Part shown: one piece after another, positions 8,803-31,781 of the stretch
Position numbering within the stretch: the stretch's first letter is position 1
Layout: the number at the start of each line of letters is the position of its first letter
NCBI GenBank assembly: GCA_903842985.1
Contig: CAIMOB010000058.1
Location: forward strand, 1 to 34,162
Length of the DNA stretch: 34,162 nucleotides
Origin: an uncultured archaeon
GTDB taxonomy: Archaea; Nanobdellota; Nanobdellia; Woesearchaeales; CAIVOO01
Reading direction: 5' to 3'
Made by a program: the position numbers and the translations under genes
The notes under the pieces: model-generated
Told to the model about the DNA's origin: nothing
What the model saw: only the letters and a program-made list of their open reading frames with translations
Databases searched by the model: none

Positions 8803-9354
8803 ATGGAAGATAAAGAAGAGTATGCAGTCGTATTGGATTTCCTTCAGCACGGCTATGCCTTTGACACAAGGCCGATGTTTAGGAAGACACCAATAGCCCA
8901 GGCTATAGGAAAAAAATATTTCTCGCTGCTTGAACTCGTACCTAAGAAAGATATTTTTCTTCAGCCTCGTGAAGAGGTTTACATAGGAGAGGGCAAGCGG
9001 GATAAGATACACCATATTGTCGGAAAGATTTCTTCTGCAAAGCTGACGCAGACAGCGAAGGCGGAGCTTGAGAACTTTGTGAAGGAAGCTATTGAGAGGG
9101 ATGAGAAGAGGTTTGTGGAGTTTTTCAACACTGCCCAGCCTCTGACAACAAGGATGCACCAGCTGGAGCTCCTGCCTGGACTTGGCAAGAAGCACATGTG
9201 GGAGATAATTGAAACAAGAAAAGAGAAGCCATTCGAATCATTCGAAGACATAAAGAAGAGAGTAAAATTAATGCCTGACCCGAAGAAGATTGTCATAAAA
9301 AGGATTCTTGAAGAACTGACAGGCGACGAGAAGCACAGGATTTTTGTCAGATAA
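8803..9354 (+). CDS. DUF655 family putative RNA-binding protein
   Basis: This 183-aa protein belongs to the archaeal DUF655 family. An N-terminal OB-like beta region (EYAVVLDFLQHGYAF to EEVYIGEGKRDKI) is followed by helices and a helix-hairpin-helix element (LELLPGLGKKHMWEIIETR, about residues 125-144). The combination suggests binding of structured RNA or DNA. Linkage to eL21 and Rpo4 is conserved and hints at a translation-linked role, but no activity is established. Its 3' end overlaps the convergent elp3 gene by 8 nt. Confidence 0.88.
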   Translation: MEDKEEYAVVLDFLQHGYAFDTRPMFRKTPIAQAIGKKYFSLLELVPKKDIFLQPREEVYIGEGKRDKIHHIVGKISSAKLTQTAKAELENFVKEAIERDEKRFVEFFNTAQPLTTRMHQLELLPGLGKKHMWEIIETRKEKPFESFEDIKKRVKLMPDPKKIVIKRILEELTGDEKHRIFVR

Positions 9355-11002
9355 ATTTGGACATGTAAGCCCCTTCTTTTTTATAGCCGAGCTTTTTGTA
9401 ATATTCCCTGACGCCGATGCCTGAGATAACTACAATTTTCTTTTTATCATTCAGGTAAGCCATTCTCTCTGCCATATCCAGCAGTTTTTTTCCTATTCCC
9501 TTGTGCTGCACAGCCCCCTCTTCCCCGATGCCTGCTGCAGAGCCATAGACATGCATCTCACGGATGAGTGCGGAATCTTTGGTTATTTCCTTTCTTAATG
9601 TTTGAGACGGGAATCTTAGCCTGCAGAAGCCGAGCAAAACATTATTTTCGGCTGAAATAAATAATTCTTCCCCGCCAGATGCCTTGTACCTGCAAACCTT
9701 GATTGCATAACTGTCAACTTTCTCGTTTCTTATCTCCCTGCATCTTATGCACCTGCATTTAACACCTGTGCTTTTGATTAGTTGCCTAAAATTATTCATT
9801 CCGACGCCTGCAGACGATATTTTTGTCGGGATGTCCCTCTGCACCCTCATGATTCTGCAGTACTCAGGCACTGTTTTCTTGAACTCAGTTATTATTTTTG
9901 CAGCCCTTTCTGTTGTAAGCGCCTTGTATTTCTTGTTTTTCCACAGGTCATAGAGTCTTGTACCCTTCATCACCATGCACGGATAGATTTTGAGCATATC
10001 TGGCTTGAAATTCTCGTCTGAGAAAAGCTTCTTCAATCCATCTAAATCCATTTTTTCGCTTGAGCCTGGAAGCCCAGGCATGTAGTGATAATTTATCTTG
10101 AAACCAAGGTCTTTTAGGGTTTTTGTTGCCTCGATTGTGGTTTTAACATCATGTCCTCTTTCAACTTTCTTAAGGACTTCATCAAAAACAGACTGGACTC
10201 CCAATTCGACTCTTGTGCAGCCGAAAGAAAGCATCTCATTTGCCAATTTTAGGTCTGCATAATCAGGCCTTGTCTCTATCGTCAGCCCAACGCATCTTAT
10301 TTTTGCCTTCTCGTTCTTTTTTTGCTCAGTTGCCAAGATGCACTTTCCTTTTAATTTCTTTAACCTGTCTTGTATCTTCTTTGTCCTTTCGCTGTCTCCC
10401 ACCTTGCCTGGAAGCTCGAAGAATTTCTTGAATTTCATGAAATCAAATTTTTCTTTTTTGTAGAAAAGCTTTGAGAAGTCATTCATTGCCTTAAATGAAT
10501 ATTTTATGAACTCGTTCTTGTAACTCTTCGGGAAGCTCGGGAATGTCCCGCCCATTACTATCAGTTCAACCTTTTCAGGGTTGTGACCCATCACAATATA
10601 CTGCTCTAATCTGTTGAAGACCTGTATGTAAGGGTCATAATTTGCACGGATTGCCCTCATTGTAGCAGGCTCATTCCCTGTGTAGCTCTGCGGAACAGTG
10701 CCAAACTCTGAATCGATTCCGCCGGGGCAGTATATGCATTTTCCGTGCGGGCATTTGAACGGCTTTGTCATTATCGCAACAACTGCAACGCCTGAGATTG
10801 TCCTGGTTGGCTTTGTCAATAATTTATTTTGAAGAAGCGGAAGGTCCTTGTTTTCAGCGTGCGTCAGTATCTCTATGTCTGTCGGAGTCTCCTTTATCTT
10901 GTACTTCTTGCAGAGCTCTGTCTTCAGATGATGGAGATTCTGCTTGTCCAGATTGCCTGATTTTATCTTTTCTATCAATTCGCTGAAAAATTCATCTTTC
11001 AT
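9347..11002 (-). CDS. elp3: tRNA uridine(34) acetyltransferase Elp3
   Basis: This 551-aa enzyme starts the carboxymethyl modification of wobble uridine in tRNA using acetyl-CoA and radical SAM chemistry. The radical-SAM cysteines are C84-x4-C89-x2-C92 (in CPHGKCIYCPGG), followed by GTVPQSYTGNEPATMRA, the typical Elp3 stretch. The C-terminal GNAT domain includes QHKGIGKKLL for acetyl-CoA binding. Length is full for archaeal Elp3. A TATA element at about 11018-11026 lies close to the ATG, implying almost no leader. The gene is convergent with DUF655 and overlaps it by 8 nt. Confidence 0.96.
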   Translation of the reverse strand: MKDEFFSELIEKIKSGNLDKQNLHHLKTELCKKYKIKETPTDIEILTHAENKDLPLLQNKLLTKPTRTISGVAVVAIMTKPFKCPHGKCIYCPGGIDSEFGTVPQSYTGNEPATMRAIRANYDPYIQVFNRLEQYIVMGHNPEKVELIVMGGTFPSFPKSYKNEFIKYSFKAMNDFSKLFYKKEKFDFMKFKKFFELPGKVGDSERTKKIQDRLKKLKGKCILATEQKKNEKAKIRCVGLTIETRPDYADLKLANEMLSFGCTRVELGVQSVFDEVLKKVERGHDVKTTIEATKTLKDLGFKINYHYMPGLPGSSEKMDLDGLKKLFSDENFKPDMLKIYPCMVMKGTRLYDLWKNKKYKALTTERAAKIITEFKKTVPEYCRIMRVQRDIPTKISSAGVGMNNFRQLIKSTGVKCRCIRCREIRNEKVDSYAIKVCRYKASGGEELFISAENNVLLGFCRLRFPSQTLRKEITKDSALIREMHVYGSAAGIGEEGAVQHKGIGKKLLDMAERMAYLNDKKKIVVISGIGVREYYKKLGYKKEGAYMSKFI

Positions 11003-11033: not shown

Positions 11034-11417
11034 CTAGCACTTTTCAATTGTTTTCTTCAAAGAATTTTTACATGCAAACTGCCTGTTGTTCTTCTCTATT
11101 ACTGGCCTTATCTCAAGGTTTCCACCAAAATTGGTGTAATTTATCCTTTCAATCAGGATTCCGCCTTCCTTGACTGGCTTCAGCATTGTTATATTGTTCA
11201 CTATCAATCCGGCAATATCAATTCCGTTGTTTTCAACAGCAATTTTTATTGAAGTTGAATCATAGCAGGAATTTATGTTTTGAATCAGGTTAATCTTTAC
11301 ATCATTTATGCAGATAAGTTTCGCCTCTGCATTTGGAACATCGATGACTGTTCCAGCTGTTATGAATGAGCTGCATCCAGTCAGCAGCAATAAAATCAAC
11401 AAGCTAATCCTTTTCAT
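11034..11417 (-). CDS. Putative lipoprotein, 127 aa
   Basis: The N-terminus is a classic lipoprotein signal: basic MKR, a hydrophobic stretch, then lipobox LLTGC with the lipidated cysteine at 15. The mature part is small, beta-rich and has four further cysteines that could form disulfides. I recognise no family. The ATG is inside a perfect 9-bp inverted repeat (11415-11443) with GAGG in the loop, so initiation may be regulated by folding. It lies downstream of the fibre-protein operon on the same strand and may be part of the same cell-surface set. Confidence 0.75.
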   Translation of the reverse strand: MKRISLLILLLLTGCSSFITAGTVIDVPNAEAKLICINDVKINLIQNINSCYDSTSIKIAVENNGIDIAGLIVNNITMLKPVKEGGILIERINYTNFGGNLEIRPVIEKNNRQFACKNSLKKTIEKC

Positions 11418-11445: not shown

Positions 11446-11464
11446 CGCAAATCAGCGATTTGCG
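11446..11464 (-). terminator. Hairpin at the end of the fibre-protein operon
   Basis: CGCAAATC (11446-11453), loop AGC, GATTTGCG (11457-11464): a perfect 8-bp stem overlapping the stop codon of the 109-aa gene. It is the likely 3' boundary of the five-gene cluster, although no long T tract follows on the minus strand. Confidence 0.4.
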
Positions 11465-11781
11465 TCATTTTTTGACCTTGTCTTTCTCTTGACCTTCTCC
11501 ATGTCCCTGATGTGGCTCAGGAAGTATTGAAGGCAGTCCACAGCGCAGAAAGACGCCTTCTTTTTAAAACCTTCCGGTCCAAATATGAGTGTATATGAGG
11601 CGTCATACGGCTCGAGCTCTGCAAAGCAGGTTGTGCAGAACTTCGTGCTGTTGTCAAGCTCCTGCATCTTCTCCCAGATTATTTTCTTCACTTCCCTGCC
11701 TCCCATCCCTATCTCTTTCTCGAACTTTCTCAGTTCGTCGTAATTCCAGTTCTTGATTGCGTCTCTTAGTTTGTCTTTCAT
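11452..11781 (-). CDS. Small putative zinc-binding protein, 109 aa
   Basis: I do not recognise the family. Residues 1-45 look helical (WNYDELRKFEKEIGMGGREV). Two cysteine pairs follow, FCTTCFAEL and SFCAVDCLQYF, spaced like a zinc ribbon or treble clef (C-x2-C and C-x3-C). The C-terminus is basic. There is no signal peptide, so it should be cytoplasmic. Its ATG overlaps the stop of the 948-aa fibre protein (ATGA), so translation is coupled to that secreted protein, which makes a regulatory or assembly role worth considering, without direct evidence. Confidence 0.75.
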   Translation of the reverse strand: MKDKLRDAIKNWNYDELRKFEKEIGMGGREVKKIIWEKMQELDNSTKFCTTCFAELEPYDASYTLIFGPEGFKKKASFCAVDCLQYFLSHIRDMEKVKRKTRSKNDANR

Positions 11782-14624
11782 TGTGCTTCCAGCGCCTCCA
11801 CCCTCTGCTTCAGGGCGTTGTTTTCTGATTTTAATTCTTCAATCTGCTGCTGCTGTTCCTGAATTGCGCTGATTACCAGCGGGTCAAACGAGCCGTACTC
11901 CATCATGTAATAGCCGTCATCACCTTTTTTAACGAGAGTTGGGACTATGTCTTTGTTTTGCTGTGCAACAAAGCCCATCTGTGTTCCGTTAGGGAAGCTT
12001 CCCTTCTGTATAGATTCCTTCTTGTCAGCAGGCATGCTGTCGTCTATGTCTTTTGCTTGTTTCCATTCAAAAGTTACTGGCTTTAAAGCAAGGACTTTGT
12101 CAAGTGCGCTGTTCAATGGCTTGATGTTCTTTTTCAGTCTTTCATCTGAGTTACCTAACCAGCTACCTGCTGCGGATTTTGAAGCTTGCCCATTAACTTC
12201 AAGTGTATTAGTTGCTGGAATCATTCCGATGCCGACTTTGCCTGTGCTCGTCACTCGCATGCGCTCAGTTGGGCTGAGGCCGTATGGGGTTGTCATGAAA
12301 ACAAGCGCGCCAGCATAGTCGCCATTTGTGCTGCTCTCCTTTATTCCCTTAATGCTGGCAAAATTTGCCCGCGCCCCTGCGCTGTTGTATTTGCCAAGGA
12401 ATGATAAACCCGCACCAACACCAGCAGCGAATGGTGAGTCATCTGTCAGGTATAGAATGTGCCGCGCATCGCCATTGATGATTGGCATACCTTCTACATC
12501 TAATTTCACTCCGGGAGTCGTGCCAATACCTACTGAACCGTCAACAAGCACATCATGCTGTGTTTTTCCGCCGCTGCCGCCGCAGCAGCCTGACTTGAAA
12601 TACGTTGCCTGTTTTGCAGTGCCTGAGCCGGGTATCGCTTTTGGATATATTTCGAAAACGCCATCATATTGAGGAGATAAAGGGGAGCCTGATTGAAGAA
12701 CAACATCATAATAAGGATTGCCATTTCCTATTCTTACATCTCCTACAACACGAAGTTTTTTGTCTACGTTTTTGTCTGCGTCTTCTGTGCCGATGCCGAC
12801 GTTGCCGGCGCTTGTTAGCGTCATTACATTCACTCCATTACCTGTAACTCCATTACCTGTTTGACTTCCAAGCCTCAAATCAGTATTAGCCCAGGTATTA
12901 ACTCTTGCCGCAGATACAGAAGCGTAACCTGCACCGCCGCCTATCAAAACTGTTTCCGGATTGCTGGCTGTTGTACCCACCCAGAAATCAGCATTTCCAT
13001 TCACACTTAATTTTCTATCCGGGCTTGTTGTGCCGATGCCGACGCTGCCATCATTTCCAAGAAACAGAGGAACTTTTCCGCTGGTCATGTCGTTAAATAT
13101 CAATCCTGCTGCTGGAGAACTGTCGGTCTGGAAAAGCCAATTATCAGTTCCAGCATTAGTTGATTCTAAAAATATTCTTGCATAGCCTGCTTTTATGTGT
13201 AATGGCACAATTGGGTTCATTGTTCCAATGCCGACTCTGCCTGAGAGGTCTATGTTAAAAGCATATGGAATAGTTGGGTTAGCTGGCGAAATTGTGAAAG
13301 TATTGTATGGTGTCATTCCACTCCACCACTGCCTCGCTCCTGAGCCATACCATTCAATGTAATTCCAAGGATGAACGCCGTCAGTTTGGCGTAACACCAA
13401 TATATTGTCATTAGTAGAACTTATTTCCAAAGGACCTCCGGGACTAGTCGTGCCGATGCCGACGTTGCCATTTGTAGCTATCATTAGTGGAGTTGTTAAT
13501 GTATTTCCAATCCACCTTTCAAAGCTCAATGAGCCTGCAACCGTGTTCCAAGGAGCTACATCACTATTTGCTCTCATCATCCACATATTGTTCCCTGGAG
13601 ATGCCAAAGGCTTACCCGTAGTTGCAATCTTGATCCCGCTATTGAGTCCCGGTCCGGTAATTCCAAAATCACCATTCACTTCAAGCGTATTGCTGGGATT
13701 CGTTGTGCCGATGCCGACGTAGCCGTTATTGCTAAAGCTTGCAATAACATTCGATGATGGCGCACCTTTTAACAGCAGTTGGTTGTTTGTTGTATCCAGC
13801 GACCAGTAAAAGCGTTGTGTTCCGCCATTATCAAAATGTCTAATTTGCGTAAGGCTTGAGCCAGAATTGTATATGTCAATGCCTCCCCTTACATCCAGTG
13901 GCGCTCCAGGAGTTGTAGTTCCGATGCCTACATTACCTGTGTTTGTGTTGTGAATATCATTCGCATTATTGCCTGGCGCCCAGAAGCCTCCTCCGCCTGC
14001 TGTGCTCAGGCATTTATTTCCAACAGCTGTGCAAATGTCTCCTGTTGCGTTTATTCTGCCGGCGACTTCCAGCTTTGCTGTAGGATTCGTAACACCGATG
14101 CCGATGTTGCCTGAATCACCCCAAGTAAGAATTTCAGTTTTCACACCTAGATTGTCCATCCAGCCAAGCGATCCGCGGCGGTATGCGTTTCCCCCCATAT
14201 TGTGGTACTGCTGAAGCAGGATTGCAGGCCCGTTGGCTGTGCCAGTAATCCACCATGGATTGCCGTCGCCAGCTGCGTATCTAAATCCGCCACTTGTCTG
14301 GGCAATTCCGTTGACCAAAACCTTTGTTGGGGAATCGCCAAAACCAGTTAAATGAATGTTATTGCCTGAATTCGACTGTATCCACATGTCGCCAGGCATA
14401 TTTGTATCGCAGCCATCAGTTCCGCACTGCACAATCCTTGACTTAAAATTATCAATATTGAACCACAAATTGCTCTCTCCTGAATTTGTCCCTGGCTTTA
14501 TGCCTATGTCGCCTGTCATTGTTCCAGGCCCGACGCTGTCGGCAGAATGCCCTGGATTCGGGACGTCTGCAAATGCTGTAGCTAATGTCAGCAGCATCAG
14601 CAGTGCATAAATTATTTTTTTCAT
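11778..14624 (-). CDS. Secreted tail-fibre-like protein with C-terminal S74 chaperone domain
   Basis: This 948-aa protein starts with a Sec-type signal peptide (1-19, cleavage likely after AFA). The body is Gly/Asn-rich with nine copies of a short unit of type NVGIGTTSPxxxLEV at about residues 173, 231, 302, 387, 463, 527, 608, 697 and 796, typical of trimeric beta-fibres. The C-terminus (826-930) is an intramolecular chaperone of the S74 family, beginning with the conserved cleavage-site sequence SDERLKKNI, and ends in a coiled coil (918-948). In phage tail spikes this domain drives trimerisation and then cuts itself off at the serine. A cell-surface adhesin or stalk is the best inference. 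It overlaps its neighbours by ATGA on both sides. Confidence 0.88.
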   Translation of the reverse strand: MKKIIYALLMLLTLATAFADVPNPGHSADSVGPGTMTGDIGIKPGTNSGESNLWFNIDNFKSRIVQCGTDGCDTNMPGDMWIQSNSGNNIHLTGFGDSPTKVLVNGIAQTSGGFRYAAGDGNPWWITGTANGPAILLQQYHNMGGNAYRRGSLGWMDNLGVKTEILTWGDSGNIGIGVTNPTAKLEVAGRINATGDICTAVGNKCLSTAGGGGFWAPGNNANDIHNTNTGNVGIGTTTPGAPLDVRGGIDIYNSGSSLTQIRHFDNGGTQRFYWSLDTTNNQLLLKGAPSSNVIASFSNNGYVGIGTTNPSNTLEVNGDFGITGPGLNSGIKIATTGKPLASPGNNMWMMRANSDVAPWNTVAGSLSFERWIGNTLTTPLMIATNGNVGIGTTSPGGPLEISSTNDNILVLRQTDGVHPWNYIEWYGSGARQWWSGMTPYNTFTISPANPTIPYAFNIDLSGRVGIGTMNPIVPLHIKAGYARIFLESTNAGTDNWLFQTDSSPAAGLIFNDMTSGKVPLFLGNDGSVGIGTTSPDRKLSVNGNADFWVGTTASNPETVLIGGGAGYASVSAARVNTWANTDLRLGSQTGNGVTGNGVNVMTLTSAGNVGIGTEDADKNVDKKLRVVGDVRIGNGNPYYDVVLQSGSPLSPQYDGVFEIYPKAIPGSGTAKQATYFKSGCCGGSGGKTQHDVLVDGSVGIGTTPGVKLDVEGMPIINGDARHILYLTDDSPFAAGVGAGLSFLGKYNSAGARANFASIKGIKESSTNGDYAGALVFMTTPYGLSPTERMRVTSTGKVGIGMIPATNTLEVNGQASKSAAGSWLGNSDERLKKNIKPLNSALDKVLALKPVTFEWKQAKDIDDSMPADKKESIQKGSFPNGTQMGFVAQQNKDIVPTLVKKGDDGYYMMEYGSFDPLVISAIQEQQQQIEELKSENNALKQRVEALEAQ
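14000..14111. repeat. Duplicated 112-bp segment, copy A
   Basis: This stretch of the 948-aa fibre gene matches 18023-18134 of the 937-aa gene at 107 of 112 positions, with an uninterrupted identical core of about 63 bp. It encodes the unit IGVxNPTAKLEVAGRIN and the two-cysteine motif DICTAVGNKC. The identity is far above the rest of the two genes, indicating recent duplication or gene conversion. Confidence 0.85.
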
Positions 14625-15889
14625 CTTACGTCTATTTTATCATTAAGCTTCGGAGCATACGCCTTTATCCCGATGCTTTCTGCGTATTCTTTCAGCGCAG
14701 CTATTGCTGGCGGGTCGCCATGGTTCATAATAAGCGCCTTTGGATTTGCCTTCTTGATTAGATTCCTCAATCCCGTCATTCCTGCATGGGCTGAAAAGTC
14801 AAACTGCTTCACAAAGCTCTTCACCGTGACTCTCTGGTTGTCTAATTTGACATGCCTGTTGTTAATCAGGTTTCTTCCGTTTGAGCCCTCTGCCTGGTAG
14901 CCAGTCAATAATATTGCTGTGTCGGGGTCGAAATAGAAATGCTTCATGTATTCTATTACTGGTCCGCCGTCGAGCATCCCTGATGTTGTCATGAAGATTG
15001 CTCTTTCCTTCACTATGTTGGCTCTTTCCCTCATTCCGTGAACCTCTTTAATGCTGTGGAATGAATTTTTCAGCGCGCCTATGTCCCTGACTTCATCCGG
15101 ATAGTTGAACAAGTCCTTTGTAACCCTTCTTGCCATGCCGTCTATGTAAATAGGAAGCCCAAGCTTCTTTTTGTTCAATAAAAGCATCAGCTCCTGCGCC
15201 CTTCCGACTGCGAAAGCAGGCACGAGCACAGAGCCTTTCTCGAATTTCTCCCTGACTGTTGCGATAAAATCATCTTCTGTGCTCTTTCTGTCAGGATGGT
15301 CCCTGTCGCCGTAGGTTGAATCAATTATCAGGACGTCAACATCTTCCTCATAATCTGTGTCTGCCTTGTTTAACAGCAAAGTCGGATCTGTGTTTATGTC
15401 GCCTGTGTAGAGAATGTTCTTATTGTCTGCGTTAACCATCACAGATGCTGAGCCGGGAATATGCCCTGCATCATATAATTTGAATCTGATGTTATTGAAC
15501 TTGTACCATTCATTTAGTCCGTGGATTCTTATGCTCTGCGCAATCCTTCTTACGTCTGCCTTCTGGTAGACAACACGACTTTTCTTCAGCCTGTCTATTT
15601 CATACGAATCTATTAACAGCTCCTGCGTTATTGCCCTTGTCGCAGCTGTGCCTATTATTGGGCAGTTCAGCCCCAGATGGTCGAACATCGGAAGCATCCC
15701 TGAATGGTCCAGGTGTGCGTGAGAAATGAATGCGATGTCTATTCCCTTAAGATTCTCTATTGGCGTTGGATATTCAATGTCAGGAGAGATTTTTACGCCT
15801 GCATCAAAAAGGAAGCGAGTTCCTTTTGTGTTGACTTCAATACAAGACCTTCCTACTTCCTGCGCAGCTCCATGCATTATAAATTTCAT
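14621..15889 (-). CDS. Beta-CASP metallo-beta-lactamase ribonuclease (aCPSF2-like)
   Basis: This 422-aa protein has the complete metal-dependent beta-CASP nuclease architecture. The zinc motif HAHLDHSG is at residues 57-64; later motifs include IIDSTYGDRDHP, SVLVPAFAVGRAQELM, TSGMLDGGPVIEY, FDFSAHAG and the C-terminal NHGDPP. It lacks the N-terminal KH domains of aCPSF1 and so resembles aCPSF2 or archaeal RNase J-type enzymes, which cut or trim RNA. The preceding GAGGTGATG is a good ribosome-binding site within the upstream 55-aa gene. It is sandwiched between two surface fibre genes with ATGA overlaps at both ends, an unexpected setting. Confidence 0.92.
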   Translation of the reverse strand: MKFIMHGAAQEVGRSCIEVNTKGTRFLFDAGVKISPDIEYPTPIENLKGIDIAFISHAHLDHSGMLPMFDHLGLNCPIIGTAATRAITQELLIDSYEIDRLKKSRVVYQKADVRRIAQSIRIHGLNEWYKFNNIRFKLYDAGHIPGSASVMVNADNKNILYTGDINTDPTLLLNKADTDYEEDVDVLIIDSTYGDRDHPDRKSTEDDFIATVREKFEKGSVLVPAFAVGRAQELMLLLNKKKLGLPIYIDGMARRVTKDLFNYPDEVRDIGALKNSFHSIKEVHGMRERANIVKERAIFMTTSGMLDGGPVIEYMKHFYFDPDTAILLTGYQAEGSNGRNLINNRHVKLDNQRVTVKSFVKQFDFSAHAGMTGLRNLIKKANPKALIMNHGDPPAIAALKEYAESIGIKAYAPKLNDKIDVR

Positions 15890-16053
15890 TTCTTCATCAC
15901 CTCAAACTCTATGTACCATCTATTTTCTTTGCTGTCATACTTGAAGAGAACATTGTGCTTCTTGGATTTATCTAAAGCGAAGAGGAGAGGCATAGGTATC
16001 GTCGTCTCGAAGCTCGAGCCTCTTTTGTATAATTTTCGTTTGATTGTTGTCAT
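15886..16053 (-). CDS. AbrB-like small DNA-binding protein, 55 aa
   Basis: This short gene fills the gap between the 937-aa fibre gene and the beta-CASP gene. The sequence includes KRKLYKRGSSFETTIPMPLL and then HNVLFKYD and WYIEFEV, which resemble the swapped-hairpin AbrB fold (looped-hinge DNA-binding family, usually dimeric): a leading strand, a T-I-P-type helix start, and a closing pair of strands. It begins 5 nt after the upstream stop and ends with an ATGA overlap with the nuclease gene, strong evidence that it is real despite its size. It may autoregulate this operon; that is inference. Confidence 0.78.
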   Translation of the reverse strand: MTTIKRKLYKRGSSFETTIPMPLLFALDKSKKHNVLFKYDSKENRWYIEFEVMKK

Positions 16054-16058
16054 TTTAG

Positions 16059-18872
16059 TTAAGTCGCCGCCACAATTTGAAGTTTGCAGCAGAGCGCTAT
16101 AAGATCGCCGCCTGATCCTGATCTGTAACCTACCGCAACATACTCATTTGTATCTAATGTATCAGCTGCATTCCTAAAACAATCTGCATTATAAGTACTG
16201 CCGTCAGTAAAGTAATCATTTGTACCTGGATAAAGCCAACCTTCTTGTGGGCTCTTAAAGCAAGAAGATTTGTCTACTGTGATTTTTACGCCTGTTAGAG
16301 TCCCTCCCCCACTTATCTTTACATTGCCAGAAACTTCAAGCTTTTCTGCTGGAGCTGTTGTGCCGATGCCGACTCTTTGTGTTGAGCCTTGGAAGTAAGC
16401 AATAGCTGAAGCCTTACCATTGCCAACAACCAAGTTTCTAAATTGATAAATGTCATTATTATAACCACGATAGTTTATCCAAAAATCAACTATACCGCTA
16501 TTCTGCGGTTGGCTCCACATTTCATTGGTAGCTCCGGTGCAAAGAGCTTTGTTGCCGATGCAAGTATTGCCAGCCACTTCTAGCATATATCCTGGAATTG
16601 TTGTGCCAATGCCGACGTTGCCGCTATTCTGAACATACAGCGCACCATTGCCAATATATGTTGGGCCGTTTCCTGATGTGCCAGGATGCTGTATGTGCAA
16701 ACCATTCGACCCTTTTGCATTTATCTCATTATCATAAATGCTTACGCCAGTTGAGCCAGCACTTTGCAGTCCACCTTCAATAGCAGGGAAAATAATTTGG
16801 TTACTTCCAGTCGGAGTAATTGCACTGGTGCCGCTTGCAGTCCAATAGCTTGTGCCAGCAGTGGCTGCTGTTGTTTGAGTTGTTCCGTCAGGAAACTTAT
16901 AACCGCCAGACGAAGATTCTATCATACCTGCTACATTCAATTTAGAAGTTCCCGGCGACGACGTGCCGATGCCGACGTTTCCGTCTCCTTTAAGAAACAA
17001 GACATTGCTGACTTGGCTTCCAATTCCGTTTGCAATGTTAAAGGATAAATAACTATTTGATCCGCTCATGTAACTTTTTAGCGAGTGATAATACCCATTA
17101 CCTTGATCTATCCTCATAAATTCGGCGTCAGGCACGTTACCAAGATGCAATCTTACTTGCGGGCTTGTTGTGCCGATGCCGACGTTGCCGCTGGACGCTA
17201 TCGTCATTGCAGTTATGCCGTCTGGTGAATTGGCGCCATATTTGTAACCATTGACATTATTAACAACAAAAGATAACGCACCTCCTGTCAAGGTTCTTCC
17301 TGCAATAATGAAATTGCCGCCGTTATTCCCCAACTGCAAAGAATTCCAACCTAAATCTGCGCGGTATGTTTCGTCTGAAGTGTATCTAGCAATTACATGT
17401 TGATTTGCACCTACCCCTAAATCGCCACCTTCAACATCTAGTTTGTAGGCTGGACCTAACGTGCCAATGCCGACGTTGCCTGTCTGGGTTATGCGCATCC
17501 TTTCATTCGCAATAGTCCCTGCTAAGTTTCCGGTACCGACATCAAATGCCATATCTCCATAAGAGAATATATCCATCTTGTTGCTTCCTAAGTATTGAAA
17601 TCCGCCATCGCCAGAAGAAACAGAGCTGATATACATCTTTGAATTATAAGAGTTAGACAATCCTTCAAATCTTGTGACTAAGCTGCCGGAAGGACTCTTT
17701 ACATGTAAAAGTGCTCCGGGGCTTGTTGTGCCGATGCCGACGTTGCCTGACTGCAAAATTGTAAATAAATCGCTATTATTAGATGTGAATACGAAACTTT
17801 TCCAACTGTTTGAATTCCTTTTAGTTTCAAATTTCATTAAAGCATCAGGGCTGTTAGTCTGAATTTTTGAAATAGGCGCTGAATCTGGTCTGAGTGTTAA
17901 GGTACCGTTTACATCCAACGCTGTTGCGGGGCTCTTCGTGCCAATACCGATTTTGTCGGCAAGGTTTGCTGGATAAAGATTGTTGCCTGTGCGATTCCAG
18001 AAGCCAGTGGCTGCTGCAGCAACTGTGCTAAGGCATTTATTGCCAACGGCTGTGCAAATGTCTCCTGTTGCGTTTATTCTGCCGGCGACTTCCAGCTTTG
18101 CTGTAGGATTCATAACACCGATGCCGACGTTGCCATTTGTAGCAACAATAGTCAGATATGGTGATGCGGCATTGTTGCGGGCGATGCCCAAATTCTCGCT
18201 GGCTCCATTATGATAGAAATTCCAGGTATTTGTTGAGCCTGCCGCAGAAAGTCTCAGCCCCCCAGCATAGTCATTCGTAGATTGCTTGATGTCTAACTGA
18301 GCTCCAGGGTTCGTAATGCCGATGCCGACGTAACCGTTTGGCTTGATATAAAAACTATTCATTCCATTTACCTGTAACCCATATCCATCATCTGTACCAA
18401 GAAACTGGGAAATTTTAGCAACATTGCTTCTCCAGAACTGAATCATGCCGACGCTTGAACCTGCTGCTGTGTTTGTATTCAATGCAGCCAATGTTCCGCT
18501 GTTAGAACTTACGCTAAGTTTTGCAGTTCCAATGCCTGTTGTGCTAATGCTAACATTTCCAAGCACAAGAACATTTGTATTACCTCCGTTCCTGGCAGAC
18601 AAATGGATGCTCTTGCCTGTAGAAGCCTGAATCCACAAATCACCAACATTATCACAGGTCCCGCTTGCTGCACATTGCACTATTCTTGAAGAAAGAGAAC
18701 CGCTATTGAACCACAGATTGCTCTCTCCTGAATTTGTTCCTGGCTTTATGCCAATGTCGCCAGTCATGTTGCCGGGACCTATTTGGTTTGCAGAGTGTCC
18801 TGGATTCGGTACGTCTGCAAAAGCGATTGCTACAGAAATCAGAAATACGACGAAAAAAAGCAGTTTTTTCAT
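16059..18872 (-). CDS. Secreted tail-fibre-like protein without S74 domain
   Basis: This 937-aa protein has a signal peptide (1-19) and, right after it, a module nearly identical to that of the 948-aa neighbour: DVPNPGHSA then GDIGIKPGTNSGESNLWF. The body carries nine or ten V-G-I-G-T units with 50-90 residue spacing. It does not end with the S74 chaperone; instead residues 860-937 form a distinct tip with four or five cysteines, including CC near the end (LIALCCKLQ). It is first in the operon. It could assemble with its chaperone-bearing partner or be folded by it; both ideas are inference. Confidence 0.85.
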   Translation of the reverse strand: MKKLLFFVVFLISVAIAFADVPNPGHSANQIGPGNMTGDIGIKPGTNSGESNLWFNSGSLSSRIVQCAASGTCDNVGDLWIQASTGKSIHLSARNGGNTNVLVLGNVSISTTGIGTAKLSVSSNSGTLAALNTNTAAGSSVGMIQFWRSNVAKISQFLGTDDGYGLQVNGMNSFYIKPNGYVGIGITNPGAQLDIKQSTNDYAGGLRLSAAGSTNTWNFYHNGASENLGIARNNAASPYLTIVATNGNVGIGVMNPTAKLEVAGRINATGDICTAVGNKCLSTVAAAATGFWNRTGNNLYPANLADKIGIGTKSPATALDVNGTLTLRPDSAPISKIQTNSPDALMKFETKRNSNSWKSFVFTSNNSDLFTILQSGNVGIGTTSPGALLHVKSPSGSLVTRFEGLSNSYNSKMYISSVSSGDGGFQYLGSNKMDIFSYGDMAFDVGTGNLAGTIANERMRITQTGNVGIGTLGPAYKLDVEGGDLGVGANQHVIARYTSDETYRADLGWNSLQLGNNGGNFIIAGRTLTGGALSFVVNNVNGYKYGANSPDGITAMTIASSGNVGIGTTSPQVRLHLGNVPDAEFMRIDQGNGYYHSLKSYMSGSNSYLSFNIANGIGSQVSNVLFLKGDGNVGIGTSSPGTSKLNVAGMIESSSGGYKFPDGTTQTTAATAGTSYWTASGTSAITPTGSNQIIFPAIEGGLQSAGSTGVSIYDNEINAKGSNGLHIQHPGTSGNGPTYIGNGALYVQNSGNVGIGTTIPGYMLEVAGNTCIGNKALCTGATNEMWSQPQNSGIVDFWINYRGYNNDIYQFRNLVVGNGKASAIAYFQGSTQRVGIGTTAPAEKLEVSGNVKISGGGTLTGVKITVDKSSCFKSPQEGWLYPGTNDYFTDGSTYNADCFRNAADTLDTNEYVAVGYRSGSGGDLIALCCKLQIVAAT
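18023..18134. repeat. Duplicated 112-bp segment, copy B
   Basis: Partner of 14000-14111, with five mismatches in 112 positions. It lies in the 937-aa fibre gene at the equivalent repeat unit, in the same orientation, about 4.0 kb away. Confidence 0.85.
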
Positions 18873-18995
18873 ATTTTATACTTATTTTTTTACTTTTTTA
18901 TTTAATCAATTAATTACGAATTTTAATGTATATAAATATACTTATATTTAAAGGTTTCGGAAAAGTTTAATAACAAAGGCAAAAATAACAAAGAT
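18873..18995. promoter_or_regulatory. Divergent promoter region, fibre operon and dtdA
   Basis: This 123-bp AT-rich gap separates the fibre operon (-) from dtdA (+). A TATA-like TATTTATATAC near 18925-18935 faces the fibre operon and leaves a leader of about 30 nt. TTATATTTAAAGG near 18941-18954 faces dtdA. The two elements are close enough for one bound factor to affect both. Confidence 0.5.
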
Positions 18996-19796
18996 ATGAA
19001 AATCGCAATAATCGCTTCAAAGAAGGATCCGGCGGGGATGAACATCGCAGAATCCCTGAAGCGTCTCTATCCATTCAAGGCGACAAATTCCAAGTTCGAG
19101 AAAGAGCCAATCTGCGAGCTAGGGTCAGCAAGCATTTACATCACAGAAACAGATTCAGTCTACTGCGAAAATATTGACAAGAAAATAGAAGCAGACCTGT
19201 TCATATTCGCGACAAAGCACCAGTCGCAGACAAAAATTCCTTCATTGAGCGCGCATGCGCCAGGCAACTGGGGAAAGGCAGAGTTCGGCGGAAAAGACAG
19301 GAAATTGTGCATTGCGCCTGCAAATTATTTGAAGGAAGCAATAATCCAATTAGAAAAATTAAACACTCTCGGCTTCGAGGTTGTTCAGGAATGCACGCAT
19401 CACGGCCCCTATCTGGAAAAGCCAGCGATGTTTATTGAAATTGGCTCATCAGAAGAGCAGTGGGGCAACAAGGAAGCTGGAAAAATAATCGCAGAAGTCA
19501 TATACTATCTGGTCACAAATGAAATCCCAGACTACAAAACAGCTTTAGGAATCGGCGGTCTGCATACAACAACAAATTTCAAGAAGATTGTCATGAAAAC
19601 AGACATTGCACTGGGGCATGCCTGCCCGAAATACAATCTGGAAAACTTAGACGAAGAAATGCTTGAGCAGGCATTAATAAAAAGCATAAGGCCTGCAGAC
19701 ATAGTAATTCTTGATTGGAAAGGCTTGAAGGAGCACAAGCAGAAGATTGTCGACCTGCTGAAAAACAGGGATTATACAAGAACAGATAAGTTCTAA
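18996..19796 (+). CDS. dtdA: D-aminoacyl-tRNA deacylase, archaeal/plant type
   Basis: This 266-aa enzyme removes D-amino acids wrongly attached to tRNA, a proofreading step. Family motifs are present: SAHAPGNWGKAEFGG and VQECTHHGPYLEKP, both holding conserved histidines of the active site, then AGKIIAEVIYYL and ALGIGGLHTTTNF. Length matches archaeal DtdA/GEK1. The gene has its own promoter and is followed by a separately promoted lipoprotein gene. It appears functionally unrelated to the surface genes that surround it. Confidence 0.95.
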   Translation: MKIAIIASKKDPAGMNIAESLKRLYPFKATNSKFEKEPICELGSASIYITETDSVYCENIDKKIEADLFIFATKHQSQTKIPSLSAHAPGNWGKAEFGGKDRKLCIAPANYLKEAIIQLEKLNTLGFEVVQECTHHGPYLEKPAMFIEIGSSEEQWGNKEAGKIIAEVIYYLVTNEIPDYKTALGIGGLHTTTNFKKIVMKTDIALGHACPKYNLENLDEEMLEQALIKSIRPADIVILDWKGLKEHKQKIVDLLKNRDYTRTDKF

Positions 19797-31616: not shown

Positions 31617-31690
31617 GGGCCCTTAGCCCAGCCTGGTAGAGCGCCGCATTGGCTATGCGGAGGCCGCGGGTTCGAATCCCGCAGGGTCCA
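31617..31690 (+). tRNA. tRNA-Ala (anticodon GGC)
   Basis: A complete cloverleaf: acceptor GGGCCCT with AGGGTCC including the alanine identity pair G3-U70, T-stem GCGGG/CCCGC with loop TTCGAAT, anticodon stem CCGCA/TGCGG, and discriminator A. The loop TTGGCTA places GGC at 34-36 (reads GCC and GCU). Two oddities: position 37 is U, where a purine is nearly universal, and the D-stem has a C-A mismatch. CCA is not encoded beyond the discriminator. A TATA-like TTTAAATA near 31585 precedes it. Confidence 0.88.
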
Positions 31691-31708
31691 CTTCATATTT
31701 TGCTTCGC

Positions 31709-31781
31709 GGGCTCATAGATCAGTCCGGCAGATCGTCGCCTTCGCAAGGCGGAAACCCGGGTTCAAATCCCGGTGGGTCCA
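31709..31781 (+). tRNA. tRNA-Ala (anticodon CGC)
   Basis: A complete cloverleaf: acceptor GGGCTCA with TGGGTCC including G3-U70, D-stem GATC/GATC, T-stem CCGGG/CCCGG with loop TTCAAAT, anticodon stem TCGCC/GGCGG and loop TTCGCAA. CGC at 34-36 reads GCG; position 37 is A. The discriminator is A and no 3' CCA is encoded. It starts 18 nt after the first tRNA, so both are probably cut from one precursor. Confidence 0.93.

Follow-up and report, generated by a model that had tools for sequence, protein, structure and literature searches.

The window, a stretch of 34,162 nucleotides, is the whole of contig C58 of a draft genome (879 kb in 60 contigs, estimated to be about 93% complete). Five genes on its minus strand make up the locus described here. 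In reading order, they encode a fibre protein of 937 aa (fibre1, 16059-18872), an AbrB-like protein of 55 aa (15886-16053 including the stop codon; coding 15889-16053), a beta-CASP ribonuclease of 422 aa (14621-15889), a second fibre of 948 aa (fibre2, 11778-14624), and a putative zinc protein of 109 aa (11452-11781). The ORF coordinates confirm the compact layout proposed in an earlier note on this DNA, with three ATGA overlaps (15886-15889, 14621-14624, and 11778-11781) and a single 5-nt gap, which separates the stop codon of fibre1 (16059) from the ATG of the AbrB-like gene (16053). Upstream of fibre1, on the same strand, lies a promoter and operator candidate (18879-18952) that consists of a TATA box and ATAAGTA-type copies. 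Beyond it, a divergent gene for a D-aminoacyl-tRNA deacylase (PF04414; plus strand, 18996-19796) is a conserved neighbour that anchors the ancestral locus, and an Elp3-like gene (minus strand, 9347-11002) marks a downstream boundary that is kept in several relatives. Between the genes for the zinc protein and the Elp3-like protein, the window holds a small lipoprotein-like gene (11034-11417) with an LLLTGCSS signal and no family match; genome G001 has a Ca-ATPase and an exchanger at this position. Elsewhere in the window, tandem tRNA-Ala genes with GGC and CGC anticodons lie 17 nt apart (31617-31781).

The two large proteins had been described as secreted fibres of roughly 940 aa with V-G-I-G-T repeats, and this description holds: fibre1 and fibre2 each contain nine VGIG(T)-type repeats, and both are predicted to be secreted on the basis of a signal-peptide-like hydrophobic N-terminus. 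A third paralogue of 867 aa (fibre3), on contig C33 of the same genome, has such an N-terminus as well, and an N-terminal block is common to all three proteins. The accompanying mention of S74 chaperones applies to fibre2, the C-terminus of which combines a coiled coil with a Peptidase_S74 domain (PF13884, 7.2e-14, residues 826-899) starting at the autoprotease motif SDERLK (SDxxxK; residues 826-831, minus-strand positions 12132-12149). It does not apply to fibre1, in which a Pfam profile search and a motif check detected neither the S74 domain nor SDxxxK; fibre1 has a non-S74 (NS74-like) C-terminus, and its tip contains Cys (..ALCCKL..). The S74 profile gave no match in fibre3.

Residues 452-685 of fibre1 match the tip construct of the Bdellovibrio protein Bd2133 (8OND) with an E value of 6e-18 over about 230 residues, and fibre2 matches the same construct weakly (E 0.0018). 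Judged by this match, fibre1 is homologous to a segment of a Bdellovibrio mosaic adhesive trimer (MAT) fibre. The MAT family, of which Bd2133 is a member, comprises long secreted prey-recognition fibres, some with S74 and some without, that have a VG..P..L capping-loop motif, and a beta-rich N-terminal domain about 130 aa in length is conserved in all members; archaea are not mentioned in the main text of the paper that describes it (Caulton et al. 2024, PMC10769870). The likeness of the window's fibres to this family extends to their length of about 950 aa, their predicted secretion, the presence of S74 and non-S74 members side by side, their mosaic shared blocks, and repeated VG...P...L capping-loop-like motifs (a loose pattern has seven matches in fibre1 and seven in fibre2). 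In contrast to the Bdellovibrio fibres, they are archaeal, lie in an operon with an AbrB-like gene, have different tips, and were found in three copies in this genome, compared to 21 in Bdellovibrio.

The mosaic character is visible in the DNA. A blastn comparison of the fibre genes identified a 112-bp block at 95.5% identity between fibre1 and fibre2 and a 144-bp block at 88% identity between fibre1 and fibre3, and the high-identity blocks sit at differing positions among the three genes. The VGIG motifs favour the codons GTC-GGC-ATC-GGC, with GTC in 19 of 22 cases compared to 25 of 144 in the remainder of the genes (Fisher 3e-10). Because the blocks are shared at differing positions and the motif codons are biased, the sequences fit an exchange of fibre modules by recombination.

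Fibre1 and fibre2 also strongly match tail-fibre families in PHROGs, and fibre2 resembles S74 phage tail fibres of the endosialidase-chaperone type in its C-terminal S74 domain, SDxxxK motif, and coiled coil. These matches could be taken to mean that the fibres are the remnant of a provirus or tailocin. We consider this very improbable, as the fibres bear signal peptides, fibre2 is cellular with no virion genes nearby, no other phage gene was found among the window proteins examined, and, of 60 genomes from the order, 22 contain fibre relatives (10 contain S74). Scans of viral contigs found no relative of fibre2 or of the AbrB-like family, the fibre scan being sensitive to close relatives only; a virus origin of the fibres was rejected despite the PHROG matches. 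The proteins are fibres of the phage-tail or S74 type in a DPANN archaeon, which they would plausibly serve in host contact. The suggestion that they could be host-attachment or cell-contact appendages gains support from the similarity of fibre1 to a prey-recognition fibre.

The identification of the nuclease as a beta-CASP RNase is solid, with matches to the beta-CASP (PF10996, 1.4e-18) and RMMBL (PF07521, 7e-14) domains and with HxHxDH and the other metallo-beta-lactamase active-site motifs in place. Because it has 422 aa and lacks KH domains, the nuclease is by sequence of the aCPSF2 type; a separate protein of aCPSF1 length is encoded on contig C56 of the same genome. In Sulfolobus, aCPSF2 is a 5'-3' exoribonuclease that degrades mRNA (PMC3792030). 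The window's enzyme, whose activity is putative, shares the beta-CASP fold and the length of about 420 aa with archaeal aCPSF2 (PMC3792030) and differs in sitting with AbrB-like and zinc genes. The proposed zinc protein is supported by a CxxC...CxxDC pattern that is invariant across 19 homologues; its structure model is moderate (pLDDT 77).

The 55-aa protein had been put forward as an AbrB-like DNA-binding candidate. Curated family models do not match it, and neither Pfam (including PF04014 by hmmscan), NCBIfam, nor PHROGs contains a hit; a PF04014 search of the genome does not list it, a PDB profile search with the family alignment returned only noise, and a Foldseek search of the PDB with the monomer model found no AbrB match. 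Comparison of profiles, in contrast, speaks for the assignment. An hhalign alignment to PF04014 proteins of the same order scores 20.2 (P 7e-4, probability 27%), a value reached by none of 300 column permutations (mean 8.8, maximum 17.7), and it places KLYKRG-SSFETTIP in register with the G-SS-x-TIP motif of MazE/AbrB proteins. The AlphaFold monomer model (pLDDT 88) has the order beta, short helix, beta, beta, which is compatible with an AbrB fold. We tentatively conclude that the protein probably belongs to the AbrB superfamily. Its family consists of one-domain proteins of 55-60 aa and is nearly confined to contigs titled Woesearchaeota or Nanoarchaeota, in agreement with the DPANN-like archaeal source that had been suspected; the window's genome very probably belongs to this group. 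Two contigs of bacterial MAGs, titled Aminicenantes bacterium and Tenebribacter davisii (L159, L195) carry a Woesearchaeota AbrB-like gene with 72-75% identity and are probably misbinned archaeal contigs.

Comparison with relatives separates the fibres from the rest of the operon. The AbrB-like, beta-CASP, and zinc genes are adjacent in G001, G002, and G036, where the first two overlap by ATGA. Across 97 AbrB-like loci, which come from draft assemblies and were defined by simple ORF rules, the next gene encodes the RNase in 14 and the zinc protein in 31, and at such loci the zinc gene is often followed by a P-type Ca-ATPase gene; a crude hydrophobicity rule predicts a surface or secreted protein directly behind the AbrB-like gene in 17. 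In G001 and G002, which represent sister genera of the same family, the neighbour of the AbrB-like operon is again the divergent tRNA-deacylase gene seen in the window, and neither genome has a fibre match. Since the operon is present without fibres at the same deacylase site in these sister genera, we read fibre1 and fibre2 as inserted. Among the genomes inspected, the window's genome is the only one in which a fibre gene separates the AbrB-like gene from the operon promoter, and the only one with a fibre gene between the RNase and zinc genes. The better reading of these sequences is that the AbrB-like gene, which is usually the first gene of its operon, forms an old Woesearchaeota operon with the aCPSF2-type RNase and its ancestral partner, the zinc protein, and that the fibres are newcomers.

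This reading bears on the presence of a nuclease between two fibre genes, for which the earlier note offered either built-in control of the fibres at the mRNA level or an unrelated gene caught in the same transcript. The first proposal would make the five genes one functional module in which the RNase and zinc protein control fibre mRNA, as the tight ATGA coupling and the mRNA-degrading 5'-3' activity of archaeal aCPSF2 (PMC3792030) might suggest. We regard such a module as quite improbable, given that many relatives keep the AbrB-like, RNase, and zinc genes together with no fibre among them and that none of the relatives' beta-CASP loci inspected has a fibre. On the grounds of synteny we reject the RNase as a dedicated control of fibre mRNA, and by gene order the RNase is not a fibre partner. 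We prefer the second proposal, with the fibres and not the RNase as the newcomers.

Linkage of fibres to the AbrB-like gene, rather than to the RNase, does recur. On contig C33, fibre3 is followed by another copy of the AbrB-like gene (87%), which overlaps a TGT gene by ATGA. The fibre3 unit is flanked by an M24 peptidase gene and TGT, which in G002 flank an unrelated gene on the opposite strand. The deacylase site of G052 has several fibres behind its AbrB-like gene. The linkage is thus found in two genomes only, twice in the window's own and once in G052, and the expectation of a conserved gene order stands for the fibre and AbrB-like genes and fails for the fibre and RNase genes. It could be objected that repeat-rich fibre contigs were misjoined in a draft of 60 contigs whose fibre genes have near-identical stretches in common. 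The chance of such an artefact appears very small to us, since both insertion flanks are syntenic with sister genomes, the reading frames and all overlaps are intact, and the junction of fibre and AbrB-like genes recurs on C33. As a separate observation, the TGT gene behind fibre3 (L022:3751-4839, C33) belongs to TIGR00430, the queuine-type tRNA guanosine(34) transglycosylase, in an archaeal genome; its TIGR00430 score is far above that of the archaeosine model.

The genes that follow these promoters vary, and the promoters themselves have a common design, which the earlier note did not mention. At fibre1, the TATA box TTTAAATA (18945-18952) shares one base with a copy of ATAAGTA (18939-18945), and further copies are located at 18891-18897 (AAAAGTA) and 18879-18885 (ATAAGTA). 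At fibre3, too, the array is fused to the TATA box. The copy offsets are 0, 48, and 60 at fibre1 and 0, 24, and 36 at fibre3, all multiples of 12 bp, and the phase survives a 24-nt indel between the two promoters. With one mismatch allowed, the phased pattern occurs in this genome only upstream of fibre1 and fibre3. The array cassette is found also upstream of AbrB-like genes in relatives. ATAAGTA is present in the 120 nt upstream of 81 of 93 AbrB-like genes compared to 6 of 349 intergenic controls (Fisher 1.3e-67); the control genes are less AT-rich than the test set (66% vs 78%), a bias addressed by dinucleotide shuffles of the 93 upstream regions, which yield the motif in 14. Phased pairs (12 to 60 bp, in multiples of 12) precede 59 of the 93 AbrB-like genes and 1 of the 349 controls, the sole control being fibre3 of the window's own genome. 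The 93 genes share descent, so that these counts are not independent; many genera are represented, however, with a spacing that varies and a phase that does not. Adjacent copies are spaced by 0 mod 12 in 110 of 144 cases. Exact 12-bp pairs number 16 in genomes G000-G059, and 11 of them are no more than about 320 nt away from the start of an AbrB-like gene, 10 of these upstream of the gene and on its strand. Pattern searches of whole genomes gave a count of the phased pattern not above that of a reversed control pattern, and its location alone is special. We infer from these distributions that the ATAAGTA array is a candidate operator of the AbrB-like protein, although it might serve another factor.

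Alternatively, the repeats may work in the mRNA leader and not as a DNA operator, signalling translation or decay, with the AbrB-like protein or the co-encoded RNase as possible readers. Such a role would suit the strand bias of the copies (225 forward, 1 reverse), their reach to within a few nt of the start codon, and the frequent presence of the RNase gene in the operon. We nevertheless think it unlikely. In 27 to 42 of the 93 cases, depending on which of two definitions is used, the TATA box is fused to the upstream copy, ahead of wherever transcription would be expected to start; promoter indels leave the phase intact, as expected of DNA; and the direct-repeat DNA operators of MraZ are one-stranded too.

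The DNA operator that we favour invites comparison with MraZ, the nearest working analogue, in other respects. MraZ proper has two AbrB domains per chain. It is an AbrB-type protein at the head of an operon that it represses through upstream boxes, and in Mycoplasma genitalium the direct-repeat MraZ box is confined to the mraZ promoter (PMC8475190). The AbrB-like protein is likewise small and usually heads a varied operon, with a one-strand direct-repeat array at its own promoter and nearly unique to that site. It differs in being archaeal and single-domain (55-60 aa) and in the 12-bp period of its array, and its operons carry surface proteins, a Ca-ATPase, and an RNase instead of the cell-division genes of the dcw operon. 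Homology is not part of the likeness: the AbrB-like protein is not MraZ and, by analogy, may work like MraZ. Our literature searches, which took in few subscription journals, found nothing on AbrB in Woesearchaeota or on MraZ with AbrB and direct repeats.

Taken together, we favour, with moderate confidence, a model in which MAT-like fibres were inserted into an old operon whose AbrB-like protein is predicted to be an operon-head autoregulator acting through the phased array. As an oligomer, the AbrB-like protein would bind the direct ATAAGTA repeats with their 12-bp phase, which overlap with the TATA box at one end and extend to the start codon at the other, and would limit transcription of its own operon. 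Because fibre1 lies first behind the array promoter and fibre2 would be co-transcribed with it, the AbrB-like feedback loop would keep the output of both fibres in check. The fibres may be secreted as homotrimers, with the S74 domain of fibre2 acting as a chaperone of trimer folding that then cuts itself off, and their tips may touch the partner cell.

Little is known about the ways in which DPANN archaea recognise a partner cell or regulate the proteins on their surface. The locus supplies named candidate adhesins related to a proven family of predator adhesins, a family of candidate regulators that is widespread in Woesearchaeota, and a precisely defined candidate operator sequence amenable to in vitro tests that need no culture of the organism. 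More speculatively, a new archaeal family of one-domain AbrB-type autoregulators might read 12-bp-phased direct-repeat operators, and an expression cassette of promoter, cargo, and AbrB-like gene might gather and copy surface-protein genes (putative cargo: beta-helix proteins, lectin-like proteins, and MAT-like fibres). A DPANN archaeon would in this way obtain host-contact fibres that are shuffled by recombination and controlled by feedback; we hold this wider scheme to be possible but on balance doubtful.

Other AbrB-like loci also have predicted surface proteins. For example, L120 (G014:C11) has a pair of AbrB-like copies at a distance of 5.5 kb, each joined by an ATGA overlap to the gene of a predicted secreted protein, one of 1598 aa with a beta-helix and one of 547 aa. 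A recurrent gene pair follows the AbrB-like gene at L113, L124, L127, L128, L194, and L213; its products are a protein with one TM segment (223-249 aa) and a predicted surface protein in the size range of about 516-682 aa, and at L113 a Pfam search returned nothing convincing.
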